Of a stretch of DNA of 64,000 bases, positions 35,080 to 50,849 are shown in pieces (positions within the stretch are counted from its first letter, which is position 1; every line of letters begins with the position of its first letter). Source of the stretch: Costertonia aggregata (lineage in GTDB: Bacteria; Bacteroidota; Bacteroidia; Flavobacteriales; Flavobacteriaceae); contig NZ_CP058595.1 of the NCBI RefSeq assembly GCF_013402795.1, forward strand, positions 2,265,848-2,329,847, in the 5' to 3' direction. A program made the translations under genes and the position numbers. Under the pieces are notes generated by a model. It searched no databases. It worked only from the letters and a program-made list of their open reading frames with translations, and was not told where the DNA came from.

Positions 35080-35161
35080 TTTTGAAGACAACCATCTAAG
35101 GTTTAATATCTTAAATTTTATTGATTATATAATTTCTAATTTGTAATCAACGATTTATATA

Positions 35162-36214
35162 CTATTTATTGATTACTATTACGCCATCGTTATTGATGAC
35201 ATAATTAACACGATCAATTGCATTTGTGTTGCTGCCAGACTTTTTTTCAATTGCTATGTTTGGGCCGTTAAATGTACAGACTTGTAAAGCTCCTTTAGAG
35301 CGGTGGGCCGATGCAATCATTAAATGGTCAATATATTTTCCATTATCATCATAATTTATCAATACGCTTTCGATAGTGTTTTCTTTAATCTGGATTGTGA
35401 GGATAATAGAAACAAAGTTTTGCGAAAGGTTTAACCTATGGTCATTGCCAACAACATAGTCGAATGTGTTCTGATGTATATCCGTATACACTTTTTCTAA
35501 CTGTAAAAGCGAATACTCTTCCGGAAGAATCTGATAAGAGGGCTCCGCATAATATTTCATGCCTGCTTCGTACCTTTCTTTTTCAAAAGTCGTATTCTCA
35601 AAATCACTATTTCCCATATATATCGTGGTGTTCCAAATTCCGGACAACAATTCGTTAAAAGCCTCATTTGTGGTGGTCAAGGGCCAAGTGTAATCACTTT
35701 TGGTATTGTTTTCAATCAAAATTTTGTAAGGGATGGGTTGCTTTTGCCAAGGGGTCAGCGGATAAACCAGATAATTATCGTAATCTTTTATTTCAAAGGG
35801 TTTTTGCGCGTTCCATTCATATTGAAAAGGGACGGTTTTCTCCAATGCTTCCACATAAATATCACCAAAAACATAATTAGTGGTAAAACCGCTAACACCG
35901 TTTGTAAAAGCTTTTGCTTGGGTAATTCTTAGGCTAGTGCCTGTAGGGATTTTATAAGGCGTACCAAGCTCAGTAGGGAATTCATTTTTAAGTTTAATTA
36001 GGTACGATGCTTCTTTGATCGGGTCATCATAATTTTTGACAATGTAACAAAGGTGTTTTGTTTTTACGGTGGTATTTACAATTTCTGCATAAGGAAACTG
36101 TTTCGAAATATCTTTTTTTTTAGTTTTAAGTGTAAAATACAGGGCTAAAATAAAGAGTAGTAACAGAACGCCAAGAACTATTAAAATTTTAAAAAGAAGG
36201 CTCTTCAGCGTCAT
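35162..36214 (-). CDS. membrane-anchored protein of unknown function
   Basis: 350 residues. One N-terminal membrane helix (about 8-28, ILIVLGVLLLLFILALYFTL) is followed by a lysine-rich stop-transfer stretch and a long soluble domain of mixed strands, for example TNYVFGDIYVEALEKTVPFQ and YEAGMKYYAEPSYQILPEEY. I recognise no family and no catalytic motif. It is not tightly linked to neighbours: the broken gene is convergent on one side and a lipoprotein gene lies upstream. A 7-bp inverted repeat (35121-35127 with 35144-35150) follows its stop. Confidence 0.72.
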   Translation of the reverse strand: MTLKSLLFKILIVLGVLLLLFILALYFTLKTKKKDISKQFPYAEIVNTTVKTKHLCYIVKNYDDPIKEASYLIKLKNEFPTELGTPYKIPTGTSLRITQAKAFTNGVSGFTTNYVFGDIYVEALEKTVPFQYEWNAQKPFEIKDYDNYLVYPLTPWQKQPIPYKILIENNTKSDYTWPLTTTNEAFNELLSGIWNTTIYMGNSDFENTTFEKERYEAGMKYYAEPSYQILPEEYSLLQLEKVYTDIHQNTFDYVVGNDHRLNLSQNFVSIILTIQIKENTIESVLINYDDNGKYIDHLMIASAHRSKGALQVCTFNGPNIAIEKKSGSNTNAIDRVNYVINNDGVIVINK

Positions 36215-36297
36215 TGGATTTTTTTTGCATTTTCTTAAACTAACGCAGATGAGTGCAAGTTATTCTATTTCCCACTAGCCTAGATTGGCTTTGTTGC

Positions 36298-36828
36298 CTA
36301 ATATGTTTGTGCCTTGATACCATTTTTTTTAGCATAGGACATGGCGATGTCCATCAATTCTTGGTGAAGTGCATCTAATTCTGGGATATTTTTTTCGTCA
36401 AAACGTAGTAGTGTTTCATTGATTTTATCGGTATCCACTCCTTCATCTATCATTTTTGCTATCTCTAAATAATCGGTCTCATATTTGTTTTTCACAAAAT
36501 TAAACTCCTTTAGGGATGCCTCGATGAGAGCTTTTGTATCGTCAGTGATCTTAAGTGCCTCAATTTTTTTGATATCCTTTTCAATGTCTACAAGCAAATA
36601 GCCAGTAACGTTTTCTTGCAAACTTTCAGTTTTAATTAAGTTTTCATTGTTAATCGTGTAAAGCATTCCGCCATTTCTCTGAGCAATCATGTTCTTGAAT
36701 TTTCTATTGCCAAAATCCCTGAACTTATTGGTGTTAAGGGTTGTTCGGTCAAAATAGTTTTCGGCCGTGTCAAAAGAACATGATTGAAACAACATTGAAA
36801 TAATAAGAAATATCGATAGTTTTTTCAT
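36298..36828 (-). CDS. small lipoprotein of unknown function
   Basis: 176 residues from the ATG at 36828, which gives a proper lipoprotein signal (KKLSIFLIISMLFQSC, Cys17). A longer frame to 36951 would run into argH and bury the signal, so it is rejected. The mature part is Lys/Glu/Asp/Asn-rich and predicted mainly helical (LVDIEKDIKKIEALKITDD; EIAKMIDEGVDTDKINETLL). No family recognised. It sits 80 bases downstream of argH on the same strand and may be an unrelated gene. Confidence 0.75.
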   Translation of the reverse strand: MKKLSIFLIISMLFQSCSFDTAENYFDRTTLNTNKFRDFGNRKFKNMIAQRNGGMLYTINNENLIKTESLQENVTGYLLVDIEKDIKKIEALKITDDTKALIEASLKEFNFVKNKYETDYLEIAKMIDEGVDTDKINETLLRFDEKNIPELDALHQELMDIAMSYAKKNGIKAQTY

Positions 36829-36908
36829 GATTTTATATGTATTTGAGTTGACGTTGTAAAAATCAGCATATCTAAAATACGAATACTCCCGGTTTCCCGT
36901 GAAATTTT

Positions 36909-38189
36909 TTAAGATAGCTTGCTCATCTTCTCTCGAATCTCTTTCAAACACAAATTGTCCAAACTACCTTCATGGGTGTGTTTGATTTTTCGTTTGGGGG
37001 TGAAGTTGCCTGCCTGAATTTCCTGCCCCATTTGTTTGTAGGCATCACGAAAAGGCATACCGTTCTGAACGAGTTCGTTCAGAGTGTCCACACTGAATAA
37101 ATAGTCATATTTGGGGTCTTCAATGATGTTTTCGTTGACACGGATTTCTTTTAGACTAAAGGTCAAAATCTCCAAACAAGCTTTCATATCTTGAATCGCA
37201 GGCACGATGATTTCCTTGACCAATTGCAAATCACGATGATAGCCACTGGGAAGGTTATTGATCACCAAAGTCAATTGATTGGGAATGGATTGCAGTTTGT
37301 TGCATTTGCCCCTGACCAATTCAAAAACATCGGGGTTTTTCTTATGCGGCATGATACTGGAACCTGTAGTCAATTCATCGGGAAAGGATATGAAATCGAA
37401 ATTCTGGCTCATATACAAACAGATATCCATGGCCATTTTTGATATTGTAGCGGCGATATTGGCCATTCCGAAAGCCGTAGCTTTTTCGACTTTGCCTCGA
37501 CTCATTTGCGCGGCAACCACGTTGTATTTCATAGTCTCGAAACCCATATCTTGAGTAGTGAACCTTCTGTCGATGGGGAAGGAACTTCCATAACCCGCCG
37601 CACTGCCCAATGGGTTTTGGTCCGCGATTCTGTAAGCGGCTTCAATGAAATACAAGTCATCGATCAAACTTTCAGCATAAGCTGAAAACCATAATCCGAA
37701 AGAAGATGGCATTGCGATTTGTAAATGGGTATAGCCTGGTAATAAGACTCTTTTATGCTTATCCGCCAAGTTCAATAATAAATCAAAAAGGGTTTTGGTC
37801 TGAGTTTTAATCTCGGAGAGCTCATCTTTTAAATACAAATGCATGGCGACCAAAACTTGGTCGTTTCGAGAGCGCGCCGTATGGATTTTTTTACCTGTAT
37901 CGCCCAGGGCCACGGTCAATTGAAATTCTATTTTGGAGTGCATATCTTCAAAATTATCTTCAATTGTAAAAGAACCCTCTTCGATTTTTGTGGCGATTTT
38001 ATCTAATTCCGTAACTAGGTCATTTGTCTCTTTTTTCGACAATAACCCAATTTTGCCCAACATTTTGGCATGGGCTTTGGATGCGATCACATCATATTTT
38101 GCCAGGTGTAAATCAAGTTCACGGTCATTACCTACGGTGAAATGGTCTATTTTTTTATCGGTACTAAAGCCTTTGTCCCAAAGTTTCAT
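36909..38189 (-). CDS. argH: argininosuccinate lyase
   Basis: 426 residues. Last enzyme of arginine synthesis: argininosuccinate to arginine and fumarate. The fumarase/lyase superfamily signature TTGSSIMPHKKNPDVFELVRG is at about residue 270, with the catalytic serine in the SS pair. Other expected segments are HTARSRNDQV, LPGYTHLQIAMP and NPLGSAAGYG. It is the final gene of the arginine operon and is separated from argE by 75 bases containing a stem-loop. Confidence 0.96.
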   Translation of the reverse strand: MKLWDKGFSTDKKIDHFTVGNDRELDLHLAKYDVIASKAHAKMLGKIGLLSKKETNDLVTELDKIATKIEEGSFTIEDNFEDMHSKIEFQLTVALGDTGKKIHTARSRNDQVLVAMHLYLKDELSEIKTQTKTLFDLLLNLADKHKRVLLPGYTHLQIAMPSSFGLWFSAYAESLIDDLYFIEAAYRIADQNPLGSAAGYGSSFPIDRRFTTQDMGFETMKYNVVAAQMSRGKVEKATAFGMANIAATISKMAMDICLYMSQNFDFISFPDELTTGSSIMPHKKNPDVFELVRGKCNKLQSIPNQLTLVINNLPSGYHRDLQLVKEIIVPAIQDMKACLEILTFSLKEIRVNENIIEDPKYDYLFSVDTLNELVQNGMPFRDAYKQMGQEIQAGNFTPKRKIKHTHEGSLDNLCLKEIREKMSKLS

Positions 38190-38219
38190 TTATTTAGATG
38201 TTAGATTATAGATAGTAAG

Positions 38220-38256
38220 ACGTAAGACTGATTGGTAGAAATCTAAAATCTTACGT
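38220..38256. other. stem-loop between argE and argH
   Basis: Perfect 8-bp arms ACGTAAGA / TCTTACGT (38220-38227 and 38249-38256) with a 21-base loop in the 75-base gap. It could adjust readthrough or mRNA stability within the operon; no T-run makes it a strong terminator. Confidence 0.5.
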
Positions 38257-38264
38257 TCTACATC

Positions 38265-39335
38265 TCATGTCTTTTTTAAGAATCCTTCCAATATTTTAAT
38301 ATACAAATCAATGCCTTCCTCGATTTCATGCACGTAAATATACTCATCTGCGGAGTGGGAACGCGTACTATCTCCGGGACCCAATTTTAGCGATTGACAG
38401 GTCAATGCGGCTTGGTCGGAAAGGGTAGGTGAGCCGTAGGTTTGTCGTCCCAAAGCGATTCCTGATTGTACTAAAGCGTGATTTTTATCTATTTTGGAGG
38501 AGTTCAATTTCAACCCACGTTCTTGTAACTCACAGGGTGCTTCGGCCTTTAATAAATCCGCAATTTCCTGATTGGTATACGCATCGTTTACACGAACATC
38601 GATCACCAGTTCCACTTGTGCGGGGACCACATTGTGTTGACTGCCCGCATTGATTTGGGTCACGGTCATTTTTACATCTCCAAGCGCTTCGGATGTCTTT
38701 TCAAATTTATAATTCTTGAACCACTCCAATACTTCGATCGTATTATAAATGGAGTTATCATTGTTTGGATGTGCCGCATGGGACGGAGTTCCTTTGACTA
38801 CTGCGTCAAAGACAATCAGTCCCTTTTCAGCAATGGCCAGATCCATTAAGGTGGGTTCACCAACTATCGCCACATCGATTTCGGGAAGGTGGGGAAGCAA
38901 TCCTCTTAAACTATTCTCACCAGCACTTTCTTCTTCCACGGAAGCGACCATCAAAATATTGTGGTTGAGGTTTTCCTGCTCGAAAAAATGAGAGAACGTA
39001 GCTAGTAGGGAAACCAAACATCCGCCCGCATCATTGCTGCCCAATCCGTATAATTTACCATCTTCGATATGTGGATGAAACGGGTCTTTGGTATAGGCCT
39101 TATTCGGTTTTACCGTGTCGTGGTGGGAGTTTAATAGCAGAGTCGGTTTGCTGTCATCCCAGAATTTGTTCTTTGCAAAAACGTTGTTATGAATCCGTTC
39201 AAAAGAAATATCAAATTCTTTGAACCATTCTTGAATGGCATCGGCGGTTTTATCTTCTTCGGATGAAAAGGATTGTATTGAAATCAATTGTTTCAATAAA
39301 TCCAAGGCTTTCTCTGTCAATTTTTCCTGCATCAT
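38265..39335 (-). CDS. M20 family deacylase, probable N-acyl-citrulline/ornithine deacylase (ArgE-like)
   Basis: 356-residue zinc metallohydrolase. Metal and catalytic residues are visible in LLNSHHDTVKPN (His), GLGSNDAGGCLVSLL (Asp), ASVEEESAGENSL (the Glu pair), VGEPT and the C-terminal His in STRSHSADEYI. In organisms with ArgF' the deacylation follows carbamoylation, so the substrate should be N-acetyl- or N-succinyl-citrulline rather than ornithine (pathway knowledge). It lies one base after argB and before argH in the operon. Confidence 0.92.
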   Translation of the reverse strand: MMQEKLTEKALDLLKQLISIQSFSSEEDKTADAIQEWFKEFDISFERIHNNVFAKNKFWDDSKPTLLLNSHHDTVKPNKAYTKDPFHPHIEDGKLYGLGSNDAGGCLVSLLATFSHFFEQENLNHNILMVASVEEESAGENSLRGLLPHLPEIDVAIVGEPTLMDLAIAEKGLIVFDAVVKGTPSHAAHPNNDNSIYNTIEVLEWFKNYKFEKTSEALGDVKMTVTQINAGSQHNVVPAQVELVIDVRVNDAYTNQEIADLLKAEAPCELQERGLKLNSSKIDKNHALVQSGIALGRQTYGSPTLSDQAALTCQSLKLGPGDSTRSHSADEYIYVHEIEEGIDLYIKILEGFLKKT

Positions 39336-39336
39336 T

Positions 39337-40155
39337 TTATAAGGTGATAGTGGTAAAAAGTTCGTTTTTTGAATCCAACATGGAATGATGGCCGATACAT
39401 ACCTTTTCTACGCCTCTTTCAACAGCATAAAAGCAATTATCGATTTTCGGAATCATGCCATCTGCGATTACCCCGTCGTTTAGAAGTATCGTGTATTTCC
39501 TATTATCAATTTGCCTGATAACGGAATTTTCGTCATTGATGTCCTTTAAGACACCCTTTTTTTCAAAGCAATAATAAAGTGTTGTTTCGTATAGGCTACT
39601 CATATGAATGGCTACCTCGGCTGCAATAGTGTCCGCATTTGTATTTAAAAGTTGACCATTTCCATCATGGGTCATGGCACAGAAGACTGGAATGAAATCT
39701 GCTTCCAACAGTTTTGAAATCGTTTGACTATTCACGCCATCAACATCGCCCGCAAATCCATAATCGATTTCTTTTACTGGCCGTTTATGTGCTTGAATGG
39801 TATCTCCATCGGCTCCGCTTAATCCAATCGCATTACAGTTATTAGTTTGTAATTGGGCTACAATATTTTTGTTGGTCAATCCGGCATATACCATGGTGAT
39901 TATTTTCAGCGTTTCCGCATCGGTTATTCGTCGTCCTTCGACCATTTTTGACTCGATACCGAGTCTGGTTGCGAGTTGGGTAGCCAATTTTCCGCCACCA
40001 TGGACTAAAATTTTGTTCCCGTCAAGCTTTACAAAAAGGCTTAAGAACTTGGTGAGTTCCTGTTTATTTTCGATGACGTTTCCACCGATTTTTATTATGG
40101 ATAAGCCCCTCCCGGCCTCCCCCAAGGGGAGGTGTTTATCACGTGATTTTTTCAT
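39337..40155 (-). CDS. argB: acetylglutamate kinase with a REP-derived N-terminal extension
   Basis: 272 residues. ATP-dependent kinase making N-acyl-glutamyl 5-phosphate. The amino-acid-kinase fold starts at about residue 19 with LSIIKIGGNVIE, followed by VHGGGKLATQLATRLGI, EGRRITD and GLSGADGDTIQAHK. The first 18 residues (KKSRDKHLPLGEAGRG region) are not expected; they are encoded by a GC-rich REP-like element (40104-40134). The start overlaps the argF' stop as ATGA. No other start precedes the kinase fold within the element except a TTG codon. Confidence 0.94.
   Translation of the reverse strand: MKKSRDKHLPLGEAGRGLSIIKIGGNVIENKQELTKFLSLFVKLDGNKILVHGGGKLATQLATRLGIESKMVEGRRITDAETLKIITMVYAGLTNKNIVAQLQTNNCNAIGLSGADGDTIQAHKRPVKEIDYGFAGDVDGVNSQTISKLLEADFIPVFCAMTHDGNGQLLNTNADTIAAEVAIHMSSLYETTLYYCFEKKGVLKDINDENSVIRQIDNRKYTILLNDGVIADGMIPKIDNCFYAVERGVEKVCIGHHSMLDSKNELFTTITL
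40104..40134 (-). repeat. REP-like GC-rich palindromic element (copy a)
   Basis: Contains the perfect hairpin CCTCCCC-CAA-GGGGAGG (40116-40132) with a GGGAGGGGCT tail when read on the minus strand. It lies inside the 5' end of argB. It is the inverted partner of copy b, 37 bases away. Confidence 0.7.
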
Positions 40156-41123
40156 AAGGCATCATTTTTAATTCCCCTTTTGGGGGTTAGGGAGCTCAGT
40201 ATCTTTTTCAAAACTACCTGTGCTGCATACGTTCGATTATTCGCTTGCTCGATAACCAAAGATTGCTCTCCATCTAGAACTGCGTCTTCGACTACCACAT
40301 TTCTTCGAACGGGCAGACAGTGCATGAACTTTGCATTTCCCAATTTTTCCAAGGTCATCATCCAATCTAAATCTTGACTTATAACTTTTCCGTAATCCGA
40401 ATAGCTACTCCAGTTTTTCACATAAACGAAATCTGCATTTTCCATTGCCTTTTCTTGGTCATATTCAATCACGGTATCCTTAGTAATTTCAGGATTCAAT
40501 TCATAGCCTTTGGGATGCGTTATAACAAAATCCGCATTTTGCAACTGCATCATTTCCACAAAAGAATTGGCAACGGCATGCGGCAAGGCCTTGGGGTGTG
40601 GTGCCCAAGAAAGTACGACTTTTGGTCTTGGTTTGGTATGCTGTTCATCAATGGTAATGGCATCTGCCAGTGCTTGCAGCGGATGGGCAACAGAACTTTC
40701 CATATTCACGACGGGAATAGAAGCATAGTTTTTAAACCCATTCAAAACGATTTCTGCCTCGTCTTTTTCTTTATCGGTCAAAGACGCAAAAGCACGAATG
40801 GCAACGATATCACAAAACTGCGAAACCACTTTTGCTGCTTCTTTGATGTGTTCCGATTTCCCTTGGTTCATGACGGCCCCATCTTCAAATTCTAACTGCC
40901 AACCTTCACTACCGAAATTCATTACCATAACGTCCATGCCTAAATTCAAGGCAGCTTTCTGGGTGCTGAGACGTGTTCGTAGACTGTTATTGAAAAATAG
41001 TAAACAAATCGTTTTTCCTTCACCCAAGTTTTTATGAGCCATTGGATTCGCTTTTAACGTTCTTGCTTCCGACACCCAATCGGAAAGGGAGTCAATGTCT
41101 TTTATGGATAAATAGTGTTTCAT
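40152..41123 (-). CDS. N-acetyl/N-succinylornithine carbamoyltransferase (ArgF')
   Basis: 323 residues. Carbamoyltransferase of the ArgF' type: the carbamoyl-phosphate loop reads FFNNSLRTRLSTQKAALNLG (S-L-R-T-R), not the S-T-R-T-R of ordinary ornithine carbamoyltransferase. The family HCLPVRRN and WAPHPKALPHAVANSF motifs are present. Residue 90 is Ser in NQGKSEHIKEA, at the position that separates acetyl- (Glu) from succinyl- (Pro) ornithine enzymes. The last 12 or so residues (LTPKRGIKNDAL) come from a REP-like element. The ATGA overlap with argB couples translation. Confidence 0.93.
   Translation of the reverse strand: MKHYLSIKDIDSLSDWVSEARTLKANPMAHKNLGEGKTICLLFFNNSLRTRLSTQKAALNLGMDVMVMNFGSEGWQLEFEDGAVMNQGKSEHIKEAAKVVSQFCDIVAIRAFASLTDKEKDEAEIVLNGFKNYASIPVVNMESSVAHPLQALADAITIDEQHTKPRPKVVLSWAPHPKALPHAVANSFVEMMQLQNADFVITHPKGYELNPEITKDTVIEYDQEKAMENADFVYVKNWSSYSDYGKVISQDLDWMMTLEKLGNAKFMHCLPVRRNVVVEDAVLDGEQSLVIEQANNRTYAAQVVLKKILSSLTPKRGIKNDAL
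40172..40196 (+). repeat. REP-like GC-rich palindromic element (copy b)
   Basis: TTCCCCTTTTGGGGG core hairpin (CCCC-TTTT-GGGG, 40174-40185) with a TTAGGGAGCT tail. It lies inside the 3' end of argF' and encodes most of its C-terminal extension. Opposite orientation to copy a. Confidence 0.65.
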
Positions 41124-41130
41124 GGTTTTG

Positions 41131-42261
41131 TTATTCGCTGAGTGCTAGTTCTAATTTTTCAAAGAAAACATCTAAATCTTCTTTCGTAATATTTAAGGCT
41201 GGTAAAATCCGCAATACGTATTTGTCTTTTGCCCCACCCGTGAATAGATGTTGGTCGTAAATCAGTTTTTTGCGGAGTTCGGCTACTTCGAAATCGAATT
41301 CAAGTCCCAACATCAATCCTCTTCCTTTAGTTCGTTTTACCAATGGGATTGCTGCTGCTTTTTCATTAAAATATTTACCTAGCTTTTTAGCGTTGTCAAT
41401 CAGGTTTTCTTTTTCCATGATTTCTAGAACTGCCATCGTAGCGGCACAAGCGAGGTGGTTTCCACCGAAAGTAGTGCCCAATAATCCGTATGAAGCTTTG
41501 ATGCTTTCATGAATCAAAATTCCTCCGACCGGAAAGCCGTTGCCCATTCCTTTTGCTATGGAAATAATGTCAGGTTGGATTCCGTGGTGCTGAAATCCAA
41601 AGAACTTACCACTTCTTCCAAATCCGGATTGAACTTCGTCCGCTATCAATACCACTTCGTTTTCTTTACAGAGTCGTGCGATTTCTTGATAGAATGCGGT
41701 GGATGGTTCATCCAATCCTCCAACGCCTTGAATCGCTTCAATGATGACTCCGCAAACATCTCCTTTTTCGATTTCTGTTTTGAAGGCAGAAGTATCATTT
41801 AAGGGAAGAATAGTAACCTTTTGTTGTTTATTGAGCGGAGCATTTATCTTCTCATTATCCGTAGCTGCTACTGCGGCAGAAGTTCGTCCATGGAAACCAT
41901 TTTTGAAAGCGATCAACCGACTTTTACCTGTATGAAAAGAGGCCATTTTCAAAGCGTTCTCATTGGCCTCGGCACCCGAATTGCATAAGAACAAATTGTA
42001 ATCCTCACAATCTGAAAGTTGTCCCAATTTAGTTGCCAATTCTTTTTGCAGGGGATTTTGAACCGCATTGCTATAGAAGCCAATTTTATCCAATTGGTCT
42101 TTCAATCGTTTCACATAATGTGGATGGGAATGCCCTATGGAAATCACCGCATGACCCCCGTAAAAATCAAGATATTCTTGTCCCTTGTCATCTATAACAA
42201 CGATTCCTTTTGCGGAAACAGGAGTCACATCATAAAGTGGATATACATCGAAAAGGTTCAT
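41131..42261 (-). CDS. argD: acetylornithine aminotransferase-type PLP enzyme
   Basis: 376-residue class III aminotransferase, converting N-acyl-glutamate semialdehyde to N-acyl-ornithine with glutamate. The PLP lysine is in IISIAKGMGNGFPVGG, preceded by VVLIADEVQSGFGRSGK. The N-terminal YDVTPVSAKGIVVIDDKG and GHSHPHYVKRL motifs match ArgD. It sits 7 bases upstream of argF' and 82 bases downstream of proC in the operon. Confidence 0.94.
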   Translation of the reverse strand: MNLFDVYPLYDVTPVSAKGIVVIDDKGQEYLDFYGGHAVISIGHSHPHYVKRLKDQLDKIGFYSNAVQNPLQKELATKLGQLSDCEDYNLFLCNSGAEANENALKMASFHTGKSRLIAFKNGFHGRTSAAVAATDNEKINAPLNKQQKVTILPLNDTSAFKTEIEKGDVCGVIIEAIQGVGGLDEPSTAFYQEIARLCKENEVVLIADEVQSGFGRSGKFFGFQHHGIQPDIISIAKGMGNGFPVGGILIHESIKASYGLLGTTFGGNHLACAATMAVLEIMEKENLIDNAKKLGKYFNEKAAAIPLVKRTKGRGLMLGLEFDFEVAELRKKLIYDQHLFTGGAKDKYVLRILPALNITKEDLDVFFEKLELALSE

Positions 42262-42343
42262 AATTTATAAGTTCAAGTGTCAAGTTCAAATCCGGAGTTT
42301 TGTTGTGCTATTGTACTTTTTTTCGTACTTCTGACTTCGCATT

Positions 42344-43138
42344 TTATTTTGTTTTAAACTCCGTTATTTTATCAAAAGAGGCTACGATTCCGCGAATCAA
42401 TGAGGAACTTAGTCCCTGATGTTCCATTTCATTCAAGCCTTTAATTGTGCAACCCATTGGGGTGGTAACCCTGTCAATTTCTTCTTCGGGATGATTGCCT
42501 GATTCAATCAACAAACTTGCTGCTCCATTGCAGGTATGCATGGCCAATTCTTGCGCTTCTTTGGCATCAAACCCCAATTGGATCGCACCTTGTGTTGTGG
42601 CACGAATAAGGCGCATCCAAAAGGCGATGCCGCTTGCACAGATAACGGTAGCTGCTTGCATTTTCTCTTCCGGAATTTCCAAGGAATGCCCCATTCTATT
42701 AAAAATCGCTTTTGCCAAATCAATACGCTTCTTGCCCATTTCATTGGCACAAACACAGGTCATTGATTTCCCAACGGAAATTGCCGTATTCGGCATACTT
42801 CTTATGACATAGTTATCCGTTCCGATGATACTTTCAATCTTTGAAATGCTGAATCCCGTGATGGTCGAAATGACCACATGTTTTTCGGTTAGCAAGTCTT
42901 TGATGTCTTTTAAGATTTGTGAAAAATGACCAGGTTGTACTGCAAAAATCAAGATGTCGGAATTTTGAACTGCCTCTCGATTGTCTGAAGTGACCGTTAC
43001 GTTTCCGTAGCTTTCAAACGCTTTGATGGATTCTACATTCCTTTTGGTCATGTACATACTCGTGGCTCCGTTGCTGTGCAATACACCTTTTGCGATGGAC
43101 AATCCTAAGTTTCCTGTTCCTATGATGGCTATTTTCAT
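42344..43138 (-). CDS. proC: pyrroline-5-carboxylate reductase
   Basis: 264 residues. NAD(P)H-dependent reductase making proline from pyrroline 5-carboxylate. N-terminal Rossmann motif IAIIGTGNLGLSIAKGVL, central IRSMPNTAISVGKSM and the C-terminal family segment ASSLLIESGNHPEEEIDRVT-TPMGCT. Its place between argC and argD suggests that proline and arginine synthesis are co-regulated here, both starting from glutamate. The gap to argC is filled by two REP-like elements. Confidence 0.95.
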   Translation of the reverse strand: MKIAIIGTGNLGLSIAKGVLHSNGATSMYMTKRNVESIKAFESYGNVTVTSDNREAVQNSDILIFAVQPGHFSQILKDIKDLLTEKHVVISTITGFSISKIESIIGTDNYVIRSMPNTAISVGKSMTCVCANEMGKKRIDLAKAIFNRMGHSLEIPEEKMQAATVICASGIAFWMRLIRATTQGAIQLGFDAKEAQELAMHTCNGAASLLIESGNHPEEEIDRVTTPMGCTIKGLNEMEHQGLSSSLIRGIVASFDKITEFKTK

Positions 43139-43142
43139 AATA

Positions 43143-43165
43143 AGCCCCTAGCCCCCGAAGGGAGA
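43143..43165 (-). repeat. REP-like GC-rich element (copy c)
   Basis: Read on the minus strand: CTCCCTTCGGGGGCTAGGGG, matching the element family (CTCCCCTT..GGGG..G.GGGGCT). It lies 4 bases before the proC start codon and faces copy d, 55 bases away. Confidence 0.6.
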
Positions 43166-43220
43166 ATATAATGGGGTGGTTTTAAAGTTTAACTTTTATT
43201 TTCACTTTTTTTCATAAGTT

Positions 43221-43250
43221 CTCCCCTTTTGGGGAGCTAGAGGGGGCCTA
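43221..43250 (+). repeat. REP-like GC-rich element (copy d)
   Basis: Perfect hairpin CTCCCC-TTTT-GGGGAG (43221-43236) followed by CTAGAGGGGGCC. The element runs right up to, and its last bases form, the argC stop codon (minus-strand TAG at 43250-43248). Confidence 0.68.
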
Positions 43251-44222
43251 ATACACCCCCGCTTTCAATTGTAATCCTTCGCTTTCTTCAAACCCAAACA
43301 TTAAGTTCATATTCTGAACTGCTTGGCCCGATGCTCCTTTTAAGAGATTATCTATGGCTGATGTGATCAACAAAGTGTCCTCATGCCTGTGCAAATGAAT
43401 ATGACATTGATTTGTATTCACTACTTGTTTTAAATGGATGGGTTCTGATGCCATTTGCGTGAATTCTGCATCGGTATAAAAATCCTTAAATAGCTTTATG
43501 GCTTCTTCCAAATCTCCCTTGAATTTGGTGTATGCCGTTGCCAAAATACCTCTAGTGAAATTACCTCTATTGGGAAGGAAAAACACCTCGCCAACATTGG
43601 GTTGTAATGAATTCAAACTTTCATTGATTTCCCCTAAATGCTGATGGGTAAAAGGTTTGTACCAACTCACATTGCTATTTCGCCAGCTGAAATGTGTGGT
43701 GCCGGATGGACTAACACCTGCCCCGGTGCTTCCGGTCACAGCATTCACATGTATGTCCTTATCCAGTAATCCCGCTTTGGCCAATGGGAGTAAACCTAAC
43801 TGAATGGCAGTCGCAAAGCAACCCGGATTTGCGATATAATTGGCTTTCTTGATTTTTGATTTGTTGAGCTCGGGCAATCCGTAGATAAAGTTCTTCCCGT
43901 TTAAAGTGGCATCTTTTTGTAATCTAAAATCATTACTCAAATCAATGATTTTGGTTGTTTCCGAAAATTGATGTTCACCTAAAAATTTAGTTGAATTACC
44001 GTGCCCTAAGCAAAGAAAAACCACATCTACATCGGAGTTTACATCTCCTGTAAAGTTCAAATCCGTAGTACCTAACAAATCAGCATGTACCGAAGAAACT
44101 GCTTTTCCTGCACGTGTTGTACTGTAGACAAAATCGATTTCAACTTCCGAATGATGCAAAAGAATTCGGATCAATTCGCCTCCCGTATATCCTGAACCAC
44201 CTATTATTCCTGCTTTAATCAT
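43248..44222 (-). CDS. argC: N-acetyl-gamma-glutamyl-phosphate reductase
   Basis: 324 residues. NADPH-dependent reduction of N-acyl-glutamyl phosphate to the semialdehyde. The Rossmann start is IIGGSGYTGGELIRILLHHS, and the catalytic Cys is in YIANPGCFATAIQLG. FLPNRGNFTRGI and the acyl-chain region complete the fold. It overlaps argG by 8 bases, so translation is coupled. Its stop codon lies at the edge of REP-like copy d. Confidence 0.95.
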   Translation of the reverse strand: MIKAGIIGGSGYTGGELIRILLHHSEVEIDFVYSTTRAGKAVSSVHADLLGTTDLNFTGDVNSDVDVVFLCLGHGNSTKFLGEHQFSETTKIIDLSNDFRLQKDATLNGKNFIYGLPELNKSKIKKANYIANPGCFATAIQLGLLPLAKAGLLDKDIHVNAVTGSTGAGVSPSGTTHFSWRNSNVSWYKPFTHQHLGEINESLNSLQPNVGEVFFLPNRGNFTRGILATAYTKFKGDLEEAIKLFKDFYTDAEFTQMASEPIHLKQVVNTNQCHIHLHRHEDTLLITSAIDNLLKGASGQAVQNMNLMFGFEESEGLQLKAGVY

Positions 44223-45399
44223 TGTTTACATGATTATAAATTCTTCCTGAATTCGAAAGTATTTTGATGAAGCCTTTCGCTTCATCGGCTGTCCACCCTT
44301 TGTTCATTTCGCCATAGCTTCCAAAGGAGGCATTCATCAAATCATGTTTTGAGGAAATTCCATTCAATCTAAATTGAAATGGGTATAAACCCACGAAAAC
44401 ATCACCTGAAACGGTTTTTTGCGTGTCGGTCAAAAATGCCTCTATGTTTCGCATTACGGGGTCTAGATAGTTGCCTTCGTGCAATAACATTCCGTAGAAA
44501 TTACCTTGTTGCTCTTTCTGAAATTGTTGCCATTTCGATAGCGTATGTTTTTCCAACAAATGGTGCGCTTTGATAATGATGAGTGCCGCTGCAGCTTCAA
44601 AACCGACCCGGCCTTTGATGCCGATTATCGTATCACCTACATGAATATCTCTTCCGATGGCATATTTGGATGCCATGACCTCAAGTTTTTCAATATTTGC
44701 GACCGGATTGTCTTTTTGACCATCAATGGCAACCAATTCTCCTTTTTCAAAAGTCAGTTTTACTTCAGATGGTTCTTTTGTTTGCAATTGACTTGGATAA
44801 GCAGCATCGGGCAATGGTTTGTCAGAAGTCAGTGTTTCATCACCACCTACGGAAGTTCCCCAAAGACCTTTGTTGATAGAGTATTTAGCTTTTTCCCAGG
44901 GATAATCAACTCCGTTCTGTTTGAGATATTCTATTTCTTCTTCCCGTGCCAATTTGTTATCTCGTATAGGAGTAATGATTTCAATTTCAGGAGCGATAAT
45001 CTGAAAAATCATATCAAACCGTACTTGGTCATTACCGGCTCCCGTGCTTCCGTGAGCGATATATTTGGCACCGACCTTTTTCGCATAGTTTACGATTTCT
45101 ATCGCTTGTACAATTCGCTCTGCACTGACGGATAACGGATACGTATTGTTCTTCAAGACATTTCCAAAGATGAGATATTTGACTACTTTTTCATAGAAGG
45201 TCTGAACCGCATCAATTGAAGTGTAGGAAGTTGCTCCCAGTTGCAGCGCTTTTTCTTCAATGGATTTAATTTCCTCTGATGAAAACCCCCCAGTGTTCAC
45301 GCTTACGGCATGTACTTCGTATCCCTTTTCTTTACTTAGGTATTTGGCGCAGTAACTGGTGTCTAATCCGCCGCTGTATGCTAAAACTAATTTGCTCAT
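44215..45399 (-). CDS. argG: argininosuccinate synthase
   Basis: 394 residues. ATP-dependent condensation of citrulline and aspartate. The N-terminal PP-loop LVLAYSGGLDTSYCAKYL is at residue 3. Other signatures are YIAHGSTGAGNDQVRFD and EITPIRDNKLAREEE, and the conserved YSINKGLWGTSVGG. First of the classical arg genes in the operon, 29 bases after the GNAT gene. Confidence 0.96.
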   Translation of the reverse strand: MSKLVLAYSGGLDTSYCAKYLSKEKGYEVHAVSVNTGGFSSEEIKSIEEKALQLGATSYTSIDAVQTFYEKVVKYLIFGNVLKNNTYPLSVSAERIVQAIEIVNYAKKVGAKYIAHGSTGAGNDQVRFDMIFQIIAPEIEIITPIRDNKLAREEEIEYLKQNGVDYPWEKAKYSINKGLWGTSVGGDETLTSDKPLPDAAYPSQLQTKEPSEVKLTFEKGELVAIDGQKDNPVANIEKLEVMASKYAIGRDIHVGDTIIGIKGRVGFEAAAALIIIKAHHLLEKHTLSKWQQFQKEQQGNFYGMLLHEGNYLDPVMRNIEAFLTDTQKTVSGDVFVGLYPFQFRLNGISSKHDLMNASFGSYGEMNKGWTADEAKGFIKILSNSGRIYNHVNND

Positions 45400-45428
45400 T
45401 TTCTTATAAATCTAAACTGTCAGTGGTG

Positions 45429-46040
45429 TTATTTTGTTTTTTTCTTAAGGAATAAACTCTCTTTTATACTTTTCAATCTTTTAAATGCTTTACCATTCAC
45501 TTTCTTGTTCTTTGATTTGGTAGCTGGGTCGTATAACATACCTGTACACAGACACATTTTTTGCTCCGTTCTTGTTAGCACATCAAAATTTTTGCAGGTT
45601 TGGCAGCCTTTCCAGAATTCTGGATCATCGGTCAGTTCAGAGAAGGTCACGGGTTTATAGCCCAATTCATAGTTGATTTTCATAACGGGCAGTCCTGTGG
45701 TAATCCCGAATATTTTTGCATCGGGAAACTTTTTCTTTGACAACTCGAAAATCTTCTGTTTGATACTTTTTGCAAGTCCTTTTCCCCGAAAATCAGGATG
45801 CACGATTAGTCCCGAATTGGCAACATACTTCTCATGGCCCCAAATTTCAATATAACAAAAACCGGCAAACGTATCGCCATCCAAAGCGATAACGGCGTTG
45901 CCATTTTCCAATTTCTTCCGAATGTATTCCGGGGTACGCTTGGCAATTCCCGTACCGCGCACTTTGGCTGAATCGGCAATGGTATCGCAAATAATCTGTG
46001 CGTATTTGAAATGTGATGTGTTAGCAACAACAATGTTCAT
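45429..46040 (-). CDS. GNAT family N-acyltransferase at head of arg operon
   Basis: 203 residues. The acetyl-CoA site is visible in LIVHPDFRGKGLAKSIKQKI (the RGKGLA loop), with an N-terminal strand-helix of GNAT type. The C-terminal part has a Cys cluster (GCQTCKNFD, then KMCLCTGMLYDP) that could bind metal. No ArgA or ArgJ is seen elsewhere in the operon, so this protein is the natural candidate for the first step, acylation of glutamate (inference). An alternative is an unrelated protein acetyltransferase. It follows the Arg-rich leader ORF by 88 bases. Confidence 0.88.
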   Translation of the reverse strand: MNIVVANTSHFKYAQIICDTIADSAKVRGTGIAKRTPEYIRKKLENGNAVIALDGDTFAGFCYIEIWGHEKYVANSGLIVHPDFRGKGLAKSIKQKIFELSKKKFPDAKIFGITTGLPVMKINYELGYKPVTFSELTDDPEFWKGCQTCKNFDVLTRTEQKMCLCTGMLYDPATKSKNKKVNGKAFKRLKSIKESLFLKKKTK

Positions 46041-46088
46041 TGCTATGATTTTTTAATGGATAAAAAATAAAATGTGATTTTCTGATGC

Positions 46089-46110
46089 GGAACTGGACTC
46101 ACCTAGTTCC
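46089..46110 (-). promoter_or_regulatory. hairpin between the arginine leader ORF and the operon
   Basis: Arms GGAACT / AGTTCC (46089-46094 and 46105-46110), with a further GG/CC pairing inside. On the minus-strand RNA it lies 18 bases after the leader stop and about 22 bases before a U-rich stretch (46057-46067). The T-run is too distant for a textbook terminator, so its role in attenuation is uncertain. Confidence 0.4.
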
Positions 46111-46111
46111 A
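46095..46111 (-). repeat. direct repeat, copy nearer the operon
   Basis: GGACTCACCTAGTTCCA (plus strand) differs at two positions from the copy at 46239-46255. The copies flank the Arg-rich leader ORF. This copy also forms one side of the hairpin at 46089-46110. Confidence 0.55.
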
Positions 46112-46128
46112 TGAAATGTATAGTACCC

Positions 46129-46212
46129 TTACGGGCGACGGCGACGGGGCGCGAACGTACGTACGGGAGCAGTGATGCTCGTAGGAGTGAAAATGTTGAT
46201 TTGTGCGTTCAT
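46129..46212 (-). CDS. arginine-rich leader peptide of the arg operon (putative attenuator)
   Basis: A 27-residue ORF on the minus strand, starting at the ATG at 46212 and ending TAA at 46129. It contains five Arg codons, four of them consecutive and just before the end: the tail is APRRRRP-stop (CGT CGC CGT CGC). It lies about 10 bases after the predicted transcription start and 88 bases before the GNAT start, the place of a translation-attenuation leader. Ribosome stalling at the Arg run when arginyl-tRNA is scarce would be the sensor. The local sequence is strikingly GC-rich compared with its AT-rich flanks. Confidence 0.72.
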   Translation of the reverse strand: MNAQINIFTPTSITAPVRTFAPRRRRP

Positions 46213-46227
46213 TACATTGTAAATGTA

Positions 46228-46256
46228 CAAATTATATTGAACTCACCTAATTCCAA
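46228..46256 (-). promoter_or_regulatory. predicted promoter of the arginine operon
   Basis: On the minus strand, TTG (46256-46254), a 17-base spacer and TATAATTTG (46236-46228) resemble the Bacteroidota promoter TTG-N17-23-TAnnTTTG, with one extra base in the -7 element. Transcription would start near 46222, about 10 bases before the leader ATG. A short dyad, ACATTTACAATGT, follows directly. Confidence 0.6.
46239..46255 (-). repeat. direct repeat, copy in the promoter spacer
   Basis: GAACTCACCTAATTCCA (plus strand), 15 of 17 positions identical to the copy at 46095-46111. It fills the spacer between the predicted -33 and -7 elements, so a DNA-binding regulator or an RNA-level pairing could be involved. 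Confidence 0.55.
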
Positions 46257-46276
46257 TAAAAATTTTTACAAAAATT

Positions 46277-47620
46277 TCAAGTTTTGTTACGATATGCAAC
46301 CAATTCGTAAATCAAGAAGATAAAAACCGCAATATACTCAATCGCCAACAACCATAGGTTTTCCTTGAAGTCCGCCGATGAATAGGCGTAATAACTTAAA
46401 ACAATGGCCGCCGACCAAATGAACGCATACCTAAATTTCGTAAATGCGGTCAATACCACAAGGAAAATAACATACCACGGATGCACGGTCGCGGACATAA
46501 AATAATACAAAGTCAACACCCATAGCATAGAGGTAATGAGCACTGATAGTTTTTCATTTTTTCTTAGAAAGGTGAAAAGCAGAACTGCGATAATGGTCAC
46601 AATAGGAGTGATTTTCCCATAGGTTTTGATCAATTCCCATGGTTTGGCATCGAATTGAAGGGCGATTTGCTTGATACCGTTATATAAACCTGCGTTAAAC
46701 TCGAAGTTGGAAAACCAGAGTCCTATTGTTTTGGAATAATTGGTAATGAATTCAGATGAATAAAAAGGCGCAAAGAGCAGAAGGGAAGTCGTTCCGATAA
46801 TCAGATAAAATACAACCGCTTTTTTGAAGTTGAAATGCTTCAAGAAAAGGGGGAGAAATAAAAGAGGAACGAGTTTCATCGAAATCGAACAAGCATAAAC
46901 CACTGCCGCCCATTGCCATTTATTAACGGATAATAGATATAGCGCCCAAACAAAAAAGAACAGCATCACACCTTCAAAATGCAGGTTTCCGGTAAGTTCA
47001 ATAATGACCAACGGATTTAAAAAATACCAAAAAATAAGGTGTGGTGAGCGGTTAAGTTTTTTTAAGAGCTTTCTTCCCAAATAGAAAATACCAACGTCTG
47101 CCAAAATAATGGTACCCCGCAAGACCATAACAGAGCCTAAGATGCTTTTACCACCTAACAATGCGGCCATACCAAAAATGAGTTGGTTCAAAGGCGGATA
47201 ATTACTAAAGTTTTTGGTACTTAAACGGGTCATGCCCGCATATAGTTCCTGAGCATTGGCAACCGCTAGATTCGATTGTTCTATCAGAACATCGGGGACG
47301 CTCAAATACGGATTTACTAGATGGCTTACCAATTCGCCATCCCAGATAAAACGATAAAAATCTTGTGATAGGTTGGGTTCCGCAACAATAAACAATACCC
47401 TAAACGCAATGCCTATGGCGAGCAAAAACCTAAAATTCCATTTTTCGAACTGTACCAGTTTAAAGCATAAAACAAATAATGCTGCAAACAAAGCTAGGAG
47501 CTTTATAAAATCGGTTCGTTCCAGATGGTAGGCAAAGGTGTAATAGAAAATTGAACTCAATAATGCCAATACTATCGAAACTTTATGCAGTTTCAGATAT
47601 GTCACAATTGTATTGGGCAT
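46277..47620 (-). CDS. multi-pass membrane glycosyltransferase (GT87/DUF2029-like)
   Basis: 447 residues with about 10-11 membrane helices. The N-terminal loop NLSQDFYRFIWDGELVSHLV carries the Asp and the surrounding pattern seen in polyprenol-phosphate-mannose-dependent transferases. Additional loop features are TRLSTKNFSNYPPLNQLIFG and STKLVPLLFLPLF-like SMKLVPLLFLP. These enzymes add sugars outside the cytoplasmic membrane. Acceptor unknown. It is 37 bases downstream of the sulfatase on the same strand. Confidence 0.8.
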   Translation of the reverse strand: MPNTIVTYLKLHKVSIVLALLSSIFYYTFAYHLERTDFIKLLALFAALFVLCFKLVQFEKWNFRFLLAIGIAFRVLFIVAEPNLSQDFYRFIWDGELVSHLVNPYLSVPDVLIEQSNLAVANAQELYAGMTRLSTKNFSNYPPLNQLIFGMAALLGGKSILGSVMVLRGTIILADVGIFYLGRKLLKKLNRSPHLIFWYFLNPLVIIELTGNLHFEGVMLFFFVWALYLLSVNKWQWAAVVYACSISMKLVPLLFLPLFLKHFNFKKAVVFYLIIGTTSLLLFAPFYSSEFITNYSKTIGLWFSNFEFNAGLYNGIKQIALQFDAKPWELIKTYGKITPIVTIIAVLLFTFLRKNEKLSVLITSMLWVLTLYYFMSATVHPWYVIFLVVLTAFTKFRYAFIWSAAIVLSYYAYSSADFKENLWLLAIEYIAVFIFLIYELVAYRNKT

Positions 47621-47657
47621 TTTGCTCAGGTTGTTTGTTATGACTAATGTAAGGGAT

Positions 47658-49085
47658 TTATTCCTCTATTTGTCCAACGGGTCGAGTTCCTTTTCCTTCA
47701 ATACCGATTAAGGCATCGCCAAGTTCGGTTCGCATAGTATTGGCCAAATATTTTATGGTCTGTACAACTTCGGGATTTTCATTTGCTACATTTTTGGTTT
47801 CACTAAGGTCCTTTGATAAGTCATATAATGTTATTTCGGTAATCGAATCTTGTTCATAGGCTACCGGAATACCATCTTTGCCTCCTTCTCGACCGTTTAA
47901 GGTCCTGTAGGTATGGGGGAAGTACATTTTCCATTTATCATATCGTACTCCGTGCAACTCGTTTACATGATAGTAAAAGTAATAGGCCTCTTGAGGACTT
48001 TTCGTGGACTTTCCCGTCCAAATATCCCATACACTTTTTCCGTCGATTACATTTTTTGGAAGTTTGGCATGGGTGATTTCTGCGAGAGTAGGCAGAATAT
48101 CAATGTTCATCATGGGAGTTTCGATAGTTCTGCCCGGTTCGATTCTTTTTGGATAATAGATGATACAAGGTTCCCTTTGTCCGCCTTCCAAGGCAGTGCC
48201 TTTTCCTTCCCTTAGCGGAAGTGCGCTACCGGCATGTTCCCCATAATTGAGCCAAGGGCCATTGTCCGATGTGAAAATCACGAGCGTATCTTCTGCTAGG
48301 TCCAATTTTTTCAAAGTGCTCATTATTTGACCTACAGACCAGTCTATTTCCATAATCACATCCCCGTACAGACCCCGTTCGGATTTTCCCTTGAATTTAT
48401 CCGAAACGTACAAGGGTACATGGGGTTGGGGATGTGCCACGTACAAAAAAAATGGATTTCCCTTATTTTTTGTAATGAACTCTACACTTTTCTCTGTAAT
48501 TTGTGTGGTCAACAAAGATTGGTTGGTCAACGTGTCGACAATCATTTCATTCTCGTACAAGGGCAGTGGGCCAAAATTGAAAATTGGACCTTGCTGCGGA
48601 TGTAAGGGCCACATGTCATTGGAATAAGGTATGCCGAAATATTCATCAAACCCATGGTTATTGGGCATAAAATCGGGGTGGTCGCCTAGATGCCATTTCC
48701 CATAAATTGCGGTACGGTACCCTTTTTCTTTTAACATTTTTGCAATGGTGGTTTCGGTTGTATTCAGTCCTTTTTTACTATTGGGCATAAAAGCGCCATG
48801 TATACCCAAACGATTGGGGTAACATCCTGTTAAAAGTCCGGCACGGGAGGCAGAACACACGGCCTGTGCTGCATAAAAATTGGTAAGCTTAATGCCATCT
48901 TTTGCCATTTGGTCCAAATGAGGGGTTTTAATGTTGGGGGAACCAAAAACACCAACATCTTGATAGCCTTGGTCATCTGTAAAAACAATGATGACGTTCG
49001 GCTGTTTGTTTTTAGCGGGAAGTTCATTCTTGCAAGAAAGAAAAACCAATGAAAGTATGGCTAAAAGAAGCAATTTTTTTTTCAT
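47658..49085 (-). CDS. sulfatase lipoprotein (formylglycine type)
   Basis: 475 residues. Lipobox VFLSC (Cys18). Metal-binding Asp pair in VFTDDQGYQD (37-38). The residue to be converted to formylglycine is C77 in QAVCSASRAGLLTG (C-x-A-x-R). Downstream motifs include GYRTAIYGKWHLGDHPDFMP (His/Lys of the active site) and IFTSDNGPWLNYGEHAG. It would remove sulfate from a sulfated glycan at the envelope. No maturase or polysaccharide locus is nearby, so the substrate is unclear. The membrane transferase follows within 40 bases. Confidence 0.94.
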   Translation of the reverse strand: MKKKLLLLAILSLVFLSCKNELPAKNKQPNVIIVFTDDQGYQDVGVFGSPNIKTPHLDQMAKDGIKLTNFYAAQAVCSASRAGLLTGCYPNRLGIHGAFMPNSKKGLNTTETTIAKMLKEKGYRTAIYGKWHLGDHPDFMPNNHGFDEYFGIPYSNDMWPLHPQQGPIFNFGPLPLYENEMIVDTLTNQSLLTTQITEKSVEFITKNKGNPFFLYVAHPQPHVPLYVSDKFKGKSERGLYGDVIMEIDWSVGQIMSTLKKLDLAEDTLVIFTSDNGPWLNYGEHAGSALPLREGKGTALEGGQREPCIIYYPKRIEPGRTIETPMMNIDILPTLAEITHAKLPKNVIDGKSVWDIWTGKSTKSPQEAYYFYYHVNELHGVRYDKWKMYFPHTYRTLNGREGGKDGIPVAYEQDSITEITLYDLSKDLSETKNVANENPEVVQTIKYLANTMRTELGDALIGIEGKGTRPVGQIEE

Positions 49086-49314
49086 GTATTTTTGATTTTA
49101 TCGCCTTGGGTTGGTTTGTATATGTTTGTTAACCGTAAGATAAGGGAAATCAACAAAAAATTTACAAGGGATTTTTACTATGTAGTACTGTTTGGTGAAT
49201 GTGCGGGGATTTATTCATAAGCGATTTATAAATCAATCCAAGTTAAGCTTCAAATACGGTCGTTGATGATATGACCATGGAAATTCCTGACAAAAATAAT
49301 AGTTACGCCAAAAC

Positions 49315-49344
49315 AAAAACGGATAGCAGATGCTACCCGTTTTA
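49315..49344 (-). terminator. intrinsic terminator downstream of the GT2 gene
   Basis: On the minus strand, AAAACGG and CCGTTTT arms with an inner TAGC/GCTA stem (plus-strand 49315-49344) are followed by TTTTTGTTTT. It lies 20 bases after the stop of the gene at 49365. The rest of the 279-base gap (49086-49364) shows no clear promoter for the sulfatase. Confidence 0.82.
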
Positions 49345-49364
49345 TAATTTAATTTTTTAAATCT

Positions 49365-50849
49365 TTATGCCCTTGCGGTAAGGGATTTGAAGAATACAAA
49401 ACCAAAGCCCAAGAACAACATAAAGTGAAAGGGGAAAAGCCCAAAGTCGTTTAACGGTATGGCACTGTACATTCCAAATAGAAAATAGACCATAAGCGCA
49501 AATTCCAAAATCATGTTCGGGGATAGCTTTTTGGCTAAATATTTATTGCCTTTCCAGCTTTCGGTAAGACTATTGATATTAAATTTTGGCGTTCGTACAA
49601 ACTCACTGCGTTTGCCCATGTGGCCTTCCAAAACTGCAATGGAGTTGTGTAATGAAAATCCTAAGGCGACCGAGAAAAAAGTAAAGAAAATACGTATATA
49701 ATCCACAAAGCTATTGAAGCCACTTCCTTGTATGCTTTTATAGGTAAACCAATAGCATACGAAAAGGATAATGGTACTTAAAATAAAGAAACTGGTAGCT
49801 TCAAAAACCCAACCTAAATGACCGTACATATTCTTAATGTACAACATCGGTATACTTAACAATGCAACGATAAATACACATAAGAACATTGAGCTGTTCA
49901 ATAAGTGCATCACACCATGGAATTTGGTCTTGAAAGATATGTTTTTAGCGGTTATTACGCTCCAAACTGTTTTCCTAAAGTTTTCGGCCCCGCCTTTGTT
50001 CCAACGAAACTGTTGAGAACGAGCGGCACTTATGACTACAGGTAATTCTGCAGGAGTTTCAACATCTTCCAAATATTTGAACTTCCAATTTTTTAGTTGA
50101 GCACGATAGCTTAGATCCAAGTCTTCGGTCAAGGTATCGCCTTCCCAGTTACCGGCGTCCAAGATACATTCCTTGCGCCAGATACCTGCAGTACCGTTAA
50201 AATTGATAAAATGTCCTTTGGAATTTCGGCCTACCTGTTCCAAGGTAAAATGAGCATCCAAGGCAAAGGCCTGTATTTTGGTCAATGTGGAATAATCCCT
50301 GTTGATATGTCCCCAACGGGTCTGTACCACACCAATTTCCGGGTCTTTAAAATAAATTACGGTCTTTTTCAACCAATCACTATCAGGCAGGAAATCAGCG
50401 TCGAAAATAGCAACAAAATCGCCTTTGGCAACCTCCAACCCTTCTTTTAATGCCCCTGCTTTGAAACCTTGACGGTTTTCACGGCGAATGTGTTGAATAT
50501 CAAGTCCTGTATTTTGTAGGTCTTCTACCCATTTGGCAGTGTCGATTACAGATTCATCGGTTGAGTCGTCCAAAACCTGAATTTCCAATTTGCTTTTTGG
50601 ATATTCTATCTTGGCTATGTTTTCCAATAAACGTTCCATCACATACTCTTCGTTATACACCGGAAGTTGAATGGTAACATATGGTACTTCTTTGGCATCT
50701 AAAAGATTAAACTTAGGTGCACTTTGGTTACGCCTCTTATTACCTAGGTAGTTTACCAAAAGGTTCAACTGTGCAAGACTGTAGAAAAATATCAGTAACA
50801 GTGCAATGCTATAAATTGCGATGATGATGTATGCGATCGTTAGTGCCAT
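49365..50849 (-). CDS. processive-type GT2 glycosyltransferase (cellulose-synthase-like)
   Basis: 494 residues. One N-terminal helix (about 5-28), a cytoplasmic GT-A domain, and four C-terminal helices. The GT-A motifs are VTIQLPVYNEEYVMERLLEN, VLDDSTDES, IFDADFLPDSDWL (D-x-D), DLDLSYRAQLKNW (the TED-like base) and QQFRWNKGG (Q-x-x-R-W), all typical of processive GT2 enzymes. It probably makes or extends a beta-linked polysaccharide or glycolipid. It is 1 base after the second GT2 gene. Confidence 0.92.
   Translation of the reverse strand: MALTIAYIIIAIYSIALLLIFFYSLAQLNLLVNYLGNKRRNQSAPKFNLLDAKEVPYVTIQLPVYNEEYVMERLLENIAKIEYPKSKLEIQVLDDSTDESVIDTAKWVEDLQNTGLDIQHIRRENRQGFKAGALKEGLEVAKGDFVAIFDADFLPDSDWLKKTVIYFKDPEIGVVQTRWGHINRDYSTLTKIQAFALDAHFTLEQVGRNSKGHFINFNGTAGIWRKECILDAGNWEGDTLTEDLDLSYRAQLKNWKFKYLEDVETPAELPVVISAARSQQFRWNKGGAENFRKTVWSVITAKNISFKTKFHGVMHLLNSSMFLCVFIVALLSIPMLYIKNMYGHLGWVFEATSFFILSTIILFVCYWFTYKSIQGSGFNSFVDYIRIFFTFFSVALGFSLHNSIAVLEGHMGKRSEFVRTPKFNINSLTESWKGNKYLAKKLSPNMILEFALMVYFLFGMYSAIPLNDFGLFPFHFMLFLGFGFVFFKSLTARA

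Follow-up and report, generated by a model that had tools for sequence, protein, structure and literature searches.

The window, i.e. the whole stretch of 64,000 nucleotides analysed here, contains a complete arginine biosynthesis operon on its minus strand, which starts with a gene for a GNAT-family acetyltransferase and continues with genes that we take, from pathway knowledge on top of their Pfam matches, to be those listed in table 1. The operon is preceded by a leader ORF of 27 codons, which starts with the ATG at 46212, ends with the TAA at 46131-46129 and has the product MNAQINIFTPTSITAPVRTFAPRRRRP. Its 3' end reads CGT CGC CGT CGC CCG TAA, i.e. four arginine codons, proline and stop, and an additional arginine codon (CGT, in VRT) is found ten codons ahead of the stop. 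With 88 bases between this stop and the ATG of the GNAT gene (46040), the arrangement of short ORF, arginine run and operon is confirmed just as an earlier note on this DNA had described it. The number of runs of four CGN codons expected by chance in the window is 0.22, and such a run was seen in 19 of 100 shuffles (19%); since the run alone is thus not significant in the window, the case for a leader has to rest on conservation. The GNAT start codon itself is spanned by a hairpin, TAGCAAT...GTTGCTA (46045-46016, minus strand), which is similar in close relatives and is in part dictated by conserved protein sequence.

Table 1. Features at the leader and in the arginine operon (positions in the window).
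Feature	Position	Strand	Basis
Likely promoter	46220..46256	-	Sequence; TAnnTTT[GA] in relatives; start site itself putative
Leader ORF	46129..46212	-	Sequence; counterpart ORFs in relatives; synonymous-biased substitution in C-terminal half
Four Arg codons, CGT CGC CGT CGC	46135..46146	-	Sequence; Arg retained with differing codons in relatives
Hairpin P1	46125..46136	-	RNAalifold and pair counts, 75 sequences
Hairpin P2	46089..46110	-	Compensatory changes at 6/8 pairs; motif in 101/110 loci
Whole P1-P2 element	46087..46148	-	Covariance model R1, 71.9 bits (sequence was in training set)
GNAT-family acetyltransferase, arg operon gene 1	45429..46040	-	Pfam PF00583/PF13508
argG, argC, proC, argD, argF-like carbamoyltransferase, argB, argE-like M20 peptidase, argH	36909..45399	-	Pfam

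The likely promoter, on the same strand, consists of a TTG (46256-46254) and a TAnnTTT-type -7 element, TACATTTA (46227-46220), which ends 7 bases ahead of the leader ATG; TATAATTTG (46236-46228) is an alternative -7 element. TAnnTTT[GA] is likewise found 4-10 nt ahead of the ATG in 37 of 44 related leaders. Given this position just ahead of the ATG, translation of the leader probably begins close to the very 5' end of its RNA. The promoter spacer is overlapped by a sequence, GGAATTAGGTGAGTTCAA (46254-46237, minus strand), that matches the 5' half of the hairpin P2 (see below) at 16 of 18 bases and is scored weakly, with 8.6 bits, by the covariance model for the P1-P2 element.

For comparison, GNAT orthologues were located in 60 and then in 301 genomes, as well as in 80 named genome contigs which include Maribacter, Zobellia, Pricia, Muricauda/Allomuricauda, Gelidibacter, Algibacter and Tenacibaculum. 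GNAT is entirely missing from many genomes of the family (as surveyed in the 301 genomes). In nearly all of 110 Flavobacteriaceae loci, a leader ORF ending in arginine codons is present ahead of GNAT, usually with RRP directly before the stop. These leaders come in two layouts. The first, which includes the window, has a single ORF of about 25-45 codons that ends with (R)RRRP and has its stop about 83-112 nt ahead of GNAT. In the second, an extra Arg-rich ORF (of the type MKNLKNKIRCSVPGLPARNYRRCF) near -300 is situated inside a long A-U-rich helix with a T-run at its end, and the second ORF again ends with RRP and stop; where this second ORF has no ATG, a TTG or GTG in the same frame usually lies 84 nt, or close to that, ahead of the RR codons, and we suggest this codon as its putative start. 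Upstream Arg-rich ORFs of this kind, about 300 nt ahead of GNAT, were seen at four loci and others and apparently represent tandem leaders.

Beyond the family, at least three arginines occur among the last ten residues of leaders at 45 of 75 ArgR-negative loci of the class, as compared to a background of 7.6% of shuffles and 11 of 80 reverse strands, with one ArgR-positive locus also satisfying this loose definition. The earlier note had expected its reading to fail if related genomes lacked the ORF or its arginine run; the leader turned out to be conserved in the family and can still be recognised throughout the class, except for one genus (g148), in which five genomes have GNAT but neither ArgR nor P1-P2 and three of them show a promoter-proximal leader with two arginine codons only. 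In one further genome of the order (G040), no leader was seen. That the ORF could have arisen by chance in a 5' untranslated region, which the non-significant arginine run in the window alone would not reject, is refuted by this conservation across family and class, and its probability is virtually negligible.

In the peptide, conservation is mainly confined to the C-terminal half. In 52 aligned leaders, for the selection of which the last two Arg columns and the Pro had served, we determined the synonymous share among single-base codon differences, with species pairs that are not independent of each other. This share is 0.91-0.98 in the columns of the Arg run and also high at other positions of the C-terminal half (P 0.88, V 0.74, R 0.62, P 0.72, F 0.99, P 0.82), with 0.11-0.34 expected for the C-terminal columns, and most columns of the N-terminal half are near expectation. 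In other families of the class, the arginine codons of the leaders include AGG, AGA and CGA, and the motif FxPxRR is encoded there with AGG AGG, CGA CGA or CGY. As the codon thus varies between CGN and AGR while the residue stays, it is the amino acid that is conserved and not the DNA. Residues other than those of the Arg run, namely PVR[PS]F and a P ahead of the run, are conserved as well. These non-Arg residues are superfluous for pure codon-starvation sensing and argue against it.

Could the peptide itself then arrest the ribosome? Nascent PVRxFxP(x)RRRP might stall it, perhaps with arginine as the ligand, such that high arginine would shut the operon down. Such a mechanism would account for the constraint at the amino-acid level outside of the Arg run, and its motifs recur far above shuffles, with FxPxRR at 26 of 110 family and 9 of 80 class loci (0.3% of shuffles) and PVR[PS]xF at 19 of 110 and 4 of 80 loci (0.03% of shuffles), PVRPxF also being found in other families. 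Arrest peptides are position-strict, however, whereas here the distance of FxP from the Arg run shifts by one residue and the stop comes several codons further on in other families. The species pairs behind the constraint figures are, moreover, not independent, and caution is warranted because plain His leaders of the clade also retain some flanking non-His residues (N 0.85, Q 0.81). We therefore consider an arrest peptide possible but rather unlikely.

At the RNA level, RNAalifold, run unguided on 75 non-redundant sequences, returned two hairpins, P1 and P2. In P1, the last Arg/Pro codons (GCCC) pair with GGGT past the stop, and the loop, GTAA, contains the stop codon; in the family, these codons face GGGTG 3' of the stop, with the outermost of the five pairs being unpaired in 23 of 75 sequences, among them the window (4/5 pairs). 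P2 has the sequence GGAACT-A-GG-TGAGT-CC-AGTTCC with the loop motif GG-UGNGU-CC, and GGTGNG(T/C)CC occurs at most 170 nt from GNAT at the loci counted in table 1. Overall, 93% of cells are paired (85.8% in shuffles, at most 63% when slid), and 58 cells show double changes, as compared to 15.8 in shuffles; these pairing statistics are inflated by related sequences, but the changes in P2 are nonetheless many and varied, and columns used for picking the P1 and P2 patterns were not counted as evidence. Covariation among these sequences thus strongly supports P2, whereas it is limited for P1, where compensation was seen at one pair only (CG to AU, in three loci).

The two hairpins keep a nearly constant spacing of 27-32 nt (s.d. 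1.1), whereas the distance from P2 to GNAT ranges from 56 to 113 (s.d. 11). The P1-P2 element is the sole match to covariance model R1 in its own genome at E up to 1. At E < 1e-5, R1 detected the element in 72 of 121 genomes, with one such match per genome. In 71 of these 72, the GNAT operon is present, and in the remaining one (G108) the element is located ahead of argG. Since in G108 the first gene differs and is followed by argG, the element belongs to the operon and not to the GNAT start; GNAT's place between leader and argG is taken there by a 194-aa protein without a Pfam match (1661-2245 of that locus). Four low-scoring R1 matches in relatives have no arg-operon gene nearby, and a weak match at the first bases of the window is antisense within a long ORF. 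In a search of window positions 35000-50000 against Rfam, no family matched the leader at E up to 1.

These distances also bear on how the element could act. That stalling hides or exposes the GNAT start, an option raised in the earlier note, is less likely, because the P1-P2 spacing is fixed and the distance to this start is not, and because the element also precedes argG where the first gene differs. In a related scenario of translational coupling or re-initiation, the leader would merely supply ribosomes to GNAT, as might be suggested by the short gap between them and by the start-codon hairpin of close relatives; leader genes have been proposed to raise downstream translation (PMC4833913). 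As this would leave the Arg run unexplained, and with the distance to GNAT being variable and the first gene replaceable, we regard it as very improbable. According to another idea, the regulator proper is P1-P2, which would bind a protein or ligand, with the ORF merely positioning a ribosome. Conservation is highest for the P2 loop and the P1-P2 spacing, and a P1-like hairpin is retained in some variants that have lost the Pro and the stop position. Yet arginine identity is conserved via synonymous codons, and many other families have Arg leaders but no recognisable P1-P2, which makes this possibility unlikely, too.

Two other roles for P2 were considered. A DNA operator is less plausible, given that changes in one arm are matched in the other whereas the loop is fixed. 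A mimic of the tRNA-Arg anticodon, which the UACGN loops of other families had brought to mind, was abandoned, as UGAGU, the commonest loop in the family, is incompatible with it. At eight loci of other families, hairpins with UACGN or UAUGN loops lie between leader and GNAT. Overall, P2-like UAYGN hairpins were found in other families at 14 of 80 loci, as compared to 7% in shuffles, which is only suggestive of their being P2 counterparts.

No terminator-like site was found between the leader and GNAT at this locus, which bears out the earlier statement that the ORF is not followed by a canonical terminator. The his leaders of the same genomes provide the contrast, as arg and his leaders were compared by the same kind of terminator test. 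The his operon of the same genome has a His leader, MKNTNTHHHFYTCSQAR, with a strong intrinsic terminator, and His leaders are present in 30 of 30 genomes (own genome and 29 relatives), in 27 of which they are accompanied by a hairpin plus T-run; after arg leaders, by contrast, this combination occurs at just 4 of 47 related loci. Classical terminator attenuation is thus not supported for arg, whereas it is very probably used at other loci of these cells. The consensus folds gave with confidence only P1, P2 and the start-codon hairpin, and no helix competing with P1 was found. In base composition, the stretch 3' of P2 contains 6% G and 18% C, which would be compatible with Rho loading.

The well-known regulator of arginine synthesis is ArgR. 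Its domain Arg_repressor_C (PF02863) is absent from all of 30 genomes searched (own genome and 29 relatives), with control genomes including Bacteroides being positive. In a sample of the phylum, 72 of 198 genomes have the domain and, among the matches listed, all are outside the order to which the window belongs. In the class set, ArgR was found in 6 of 80 genomes, and in five of these it is encoded directly ahead of GNAT, i.e. in the position where others carry the leader. As the leader and hairpins precede the operon in most relatives and ArgR is missing there, they probably serve these bacteria for sensing arginine.

Overall, the comparison of these genomes indicates that the locus is very likely an arginine leader-peptide regulator, and we assign a probability of about 0.8 to the full explanation, in which the arg operon of these bacteria, which have no ArgR, is regulated by an arginine-controlled leader with the ORF as its sensor. 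The attenuator-like reading in the earlier note is partly supported in that the link of the Arg leader to the arg operon is conserved; the P1-P2 element, the absence of ArgR, the two-ORF variant and the conserved non-Arg residues had not been part of it. A ribosome would begin translation close to the transcript's 5' end and, with charged Arg-tRNA being scarce, stall in the terminal Arg codons. Since P1 contains these codons, stalling at them or at the stop must by geometry keep P1 open, and it is this state of P1 that we suppose to be read out. With plentiful arginine, the ribosome would reach the stop in the P1 loop and depart, and P1 would close beside P2. The closed P1-P2 might then reduce read-through into the operon with no need of an intrinsic terminator, where Rho-dependent termination or polymerase pausing in the untranslated stretch 3' of P2 seems our best guess for the route. 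A more far-reaching version, i.e. an ancient class-wide sensor that stands in for ArgR and combines arginine-induced arrest at PVRxFxP..RRR with a new structured RNA, P1-P2, read by the transcription machinery in the absence of an intrinsic terminator, appears doubtful.

The layout is familiar from attenuators of the his and trp type, including the genome's own His leader, where a short ORF near the promoter likewise carries a run of codons for the product of the biosynthetic operon that follows; the arg leader, however, has the conserved P1-P2 element instead of an intrinsic terminator. The fungal arginine attenuator peptide is also short, with conserved C-terminal residues and the regulated gene downstream, and its ligand-induced arrest has been demonstrated. 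The same features characterize TnaC (PMC8429421), a short peptide with conserved C-terminal residues ahead of a regulated gene, for which arrest induced by tryptophan has been demonstrated, whereas in the arg leader such an arrest is no more than possible. Consecutive Arg codons sense arginine in the Salmonella speF leader orf34, with Rho-dependent termination being involved (PMC6386406), but orf34 controls ornithine decarboxylase rather than arginine synthesis, and we saw no sequence relation. In Staphylococcus aureus, the leader peptide rbfL detects arginine limitation through pausing at Arg codons (PMC13009471); it differs in using rare AGG/AGA codons, in the paused ribosome blocking a downstream ribosome site and in having a biofilm factor as its target. 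For Flavobacterium psychrophilum, a member of the same family, leader-peptide attenuation has been reported as likely ahead of amino-acid operons, with no arginine case named in the respective passage (PMC9723704). In the open-access papers searched, we found no case of an arginine biosynthesis operon under leader-peptide control, which is weak evidence of novelty.

If our interpretation is true, much of this bacterial class senses arginine by the ribosome and an undescribed RNA element instead of a repressor. Moreover, a terminator-less arg leader beside a textbook His attenuator in one genome represents a clean natural comparison, which could reveal another way of coupling ribosome stalling to operon expression.
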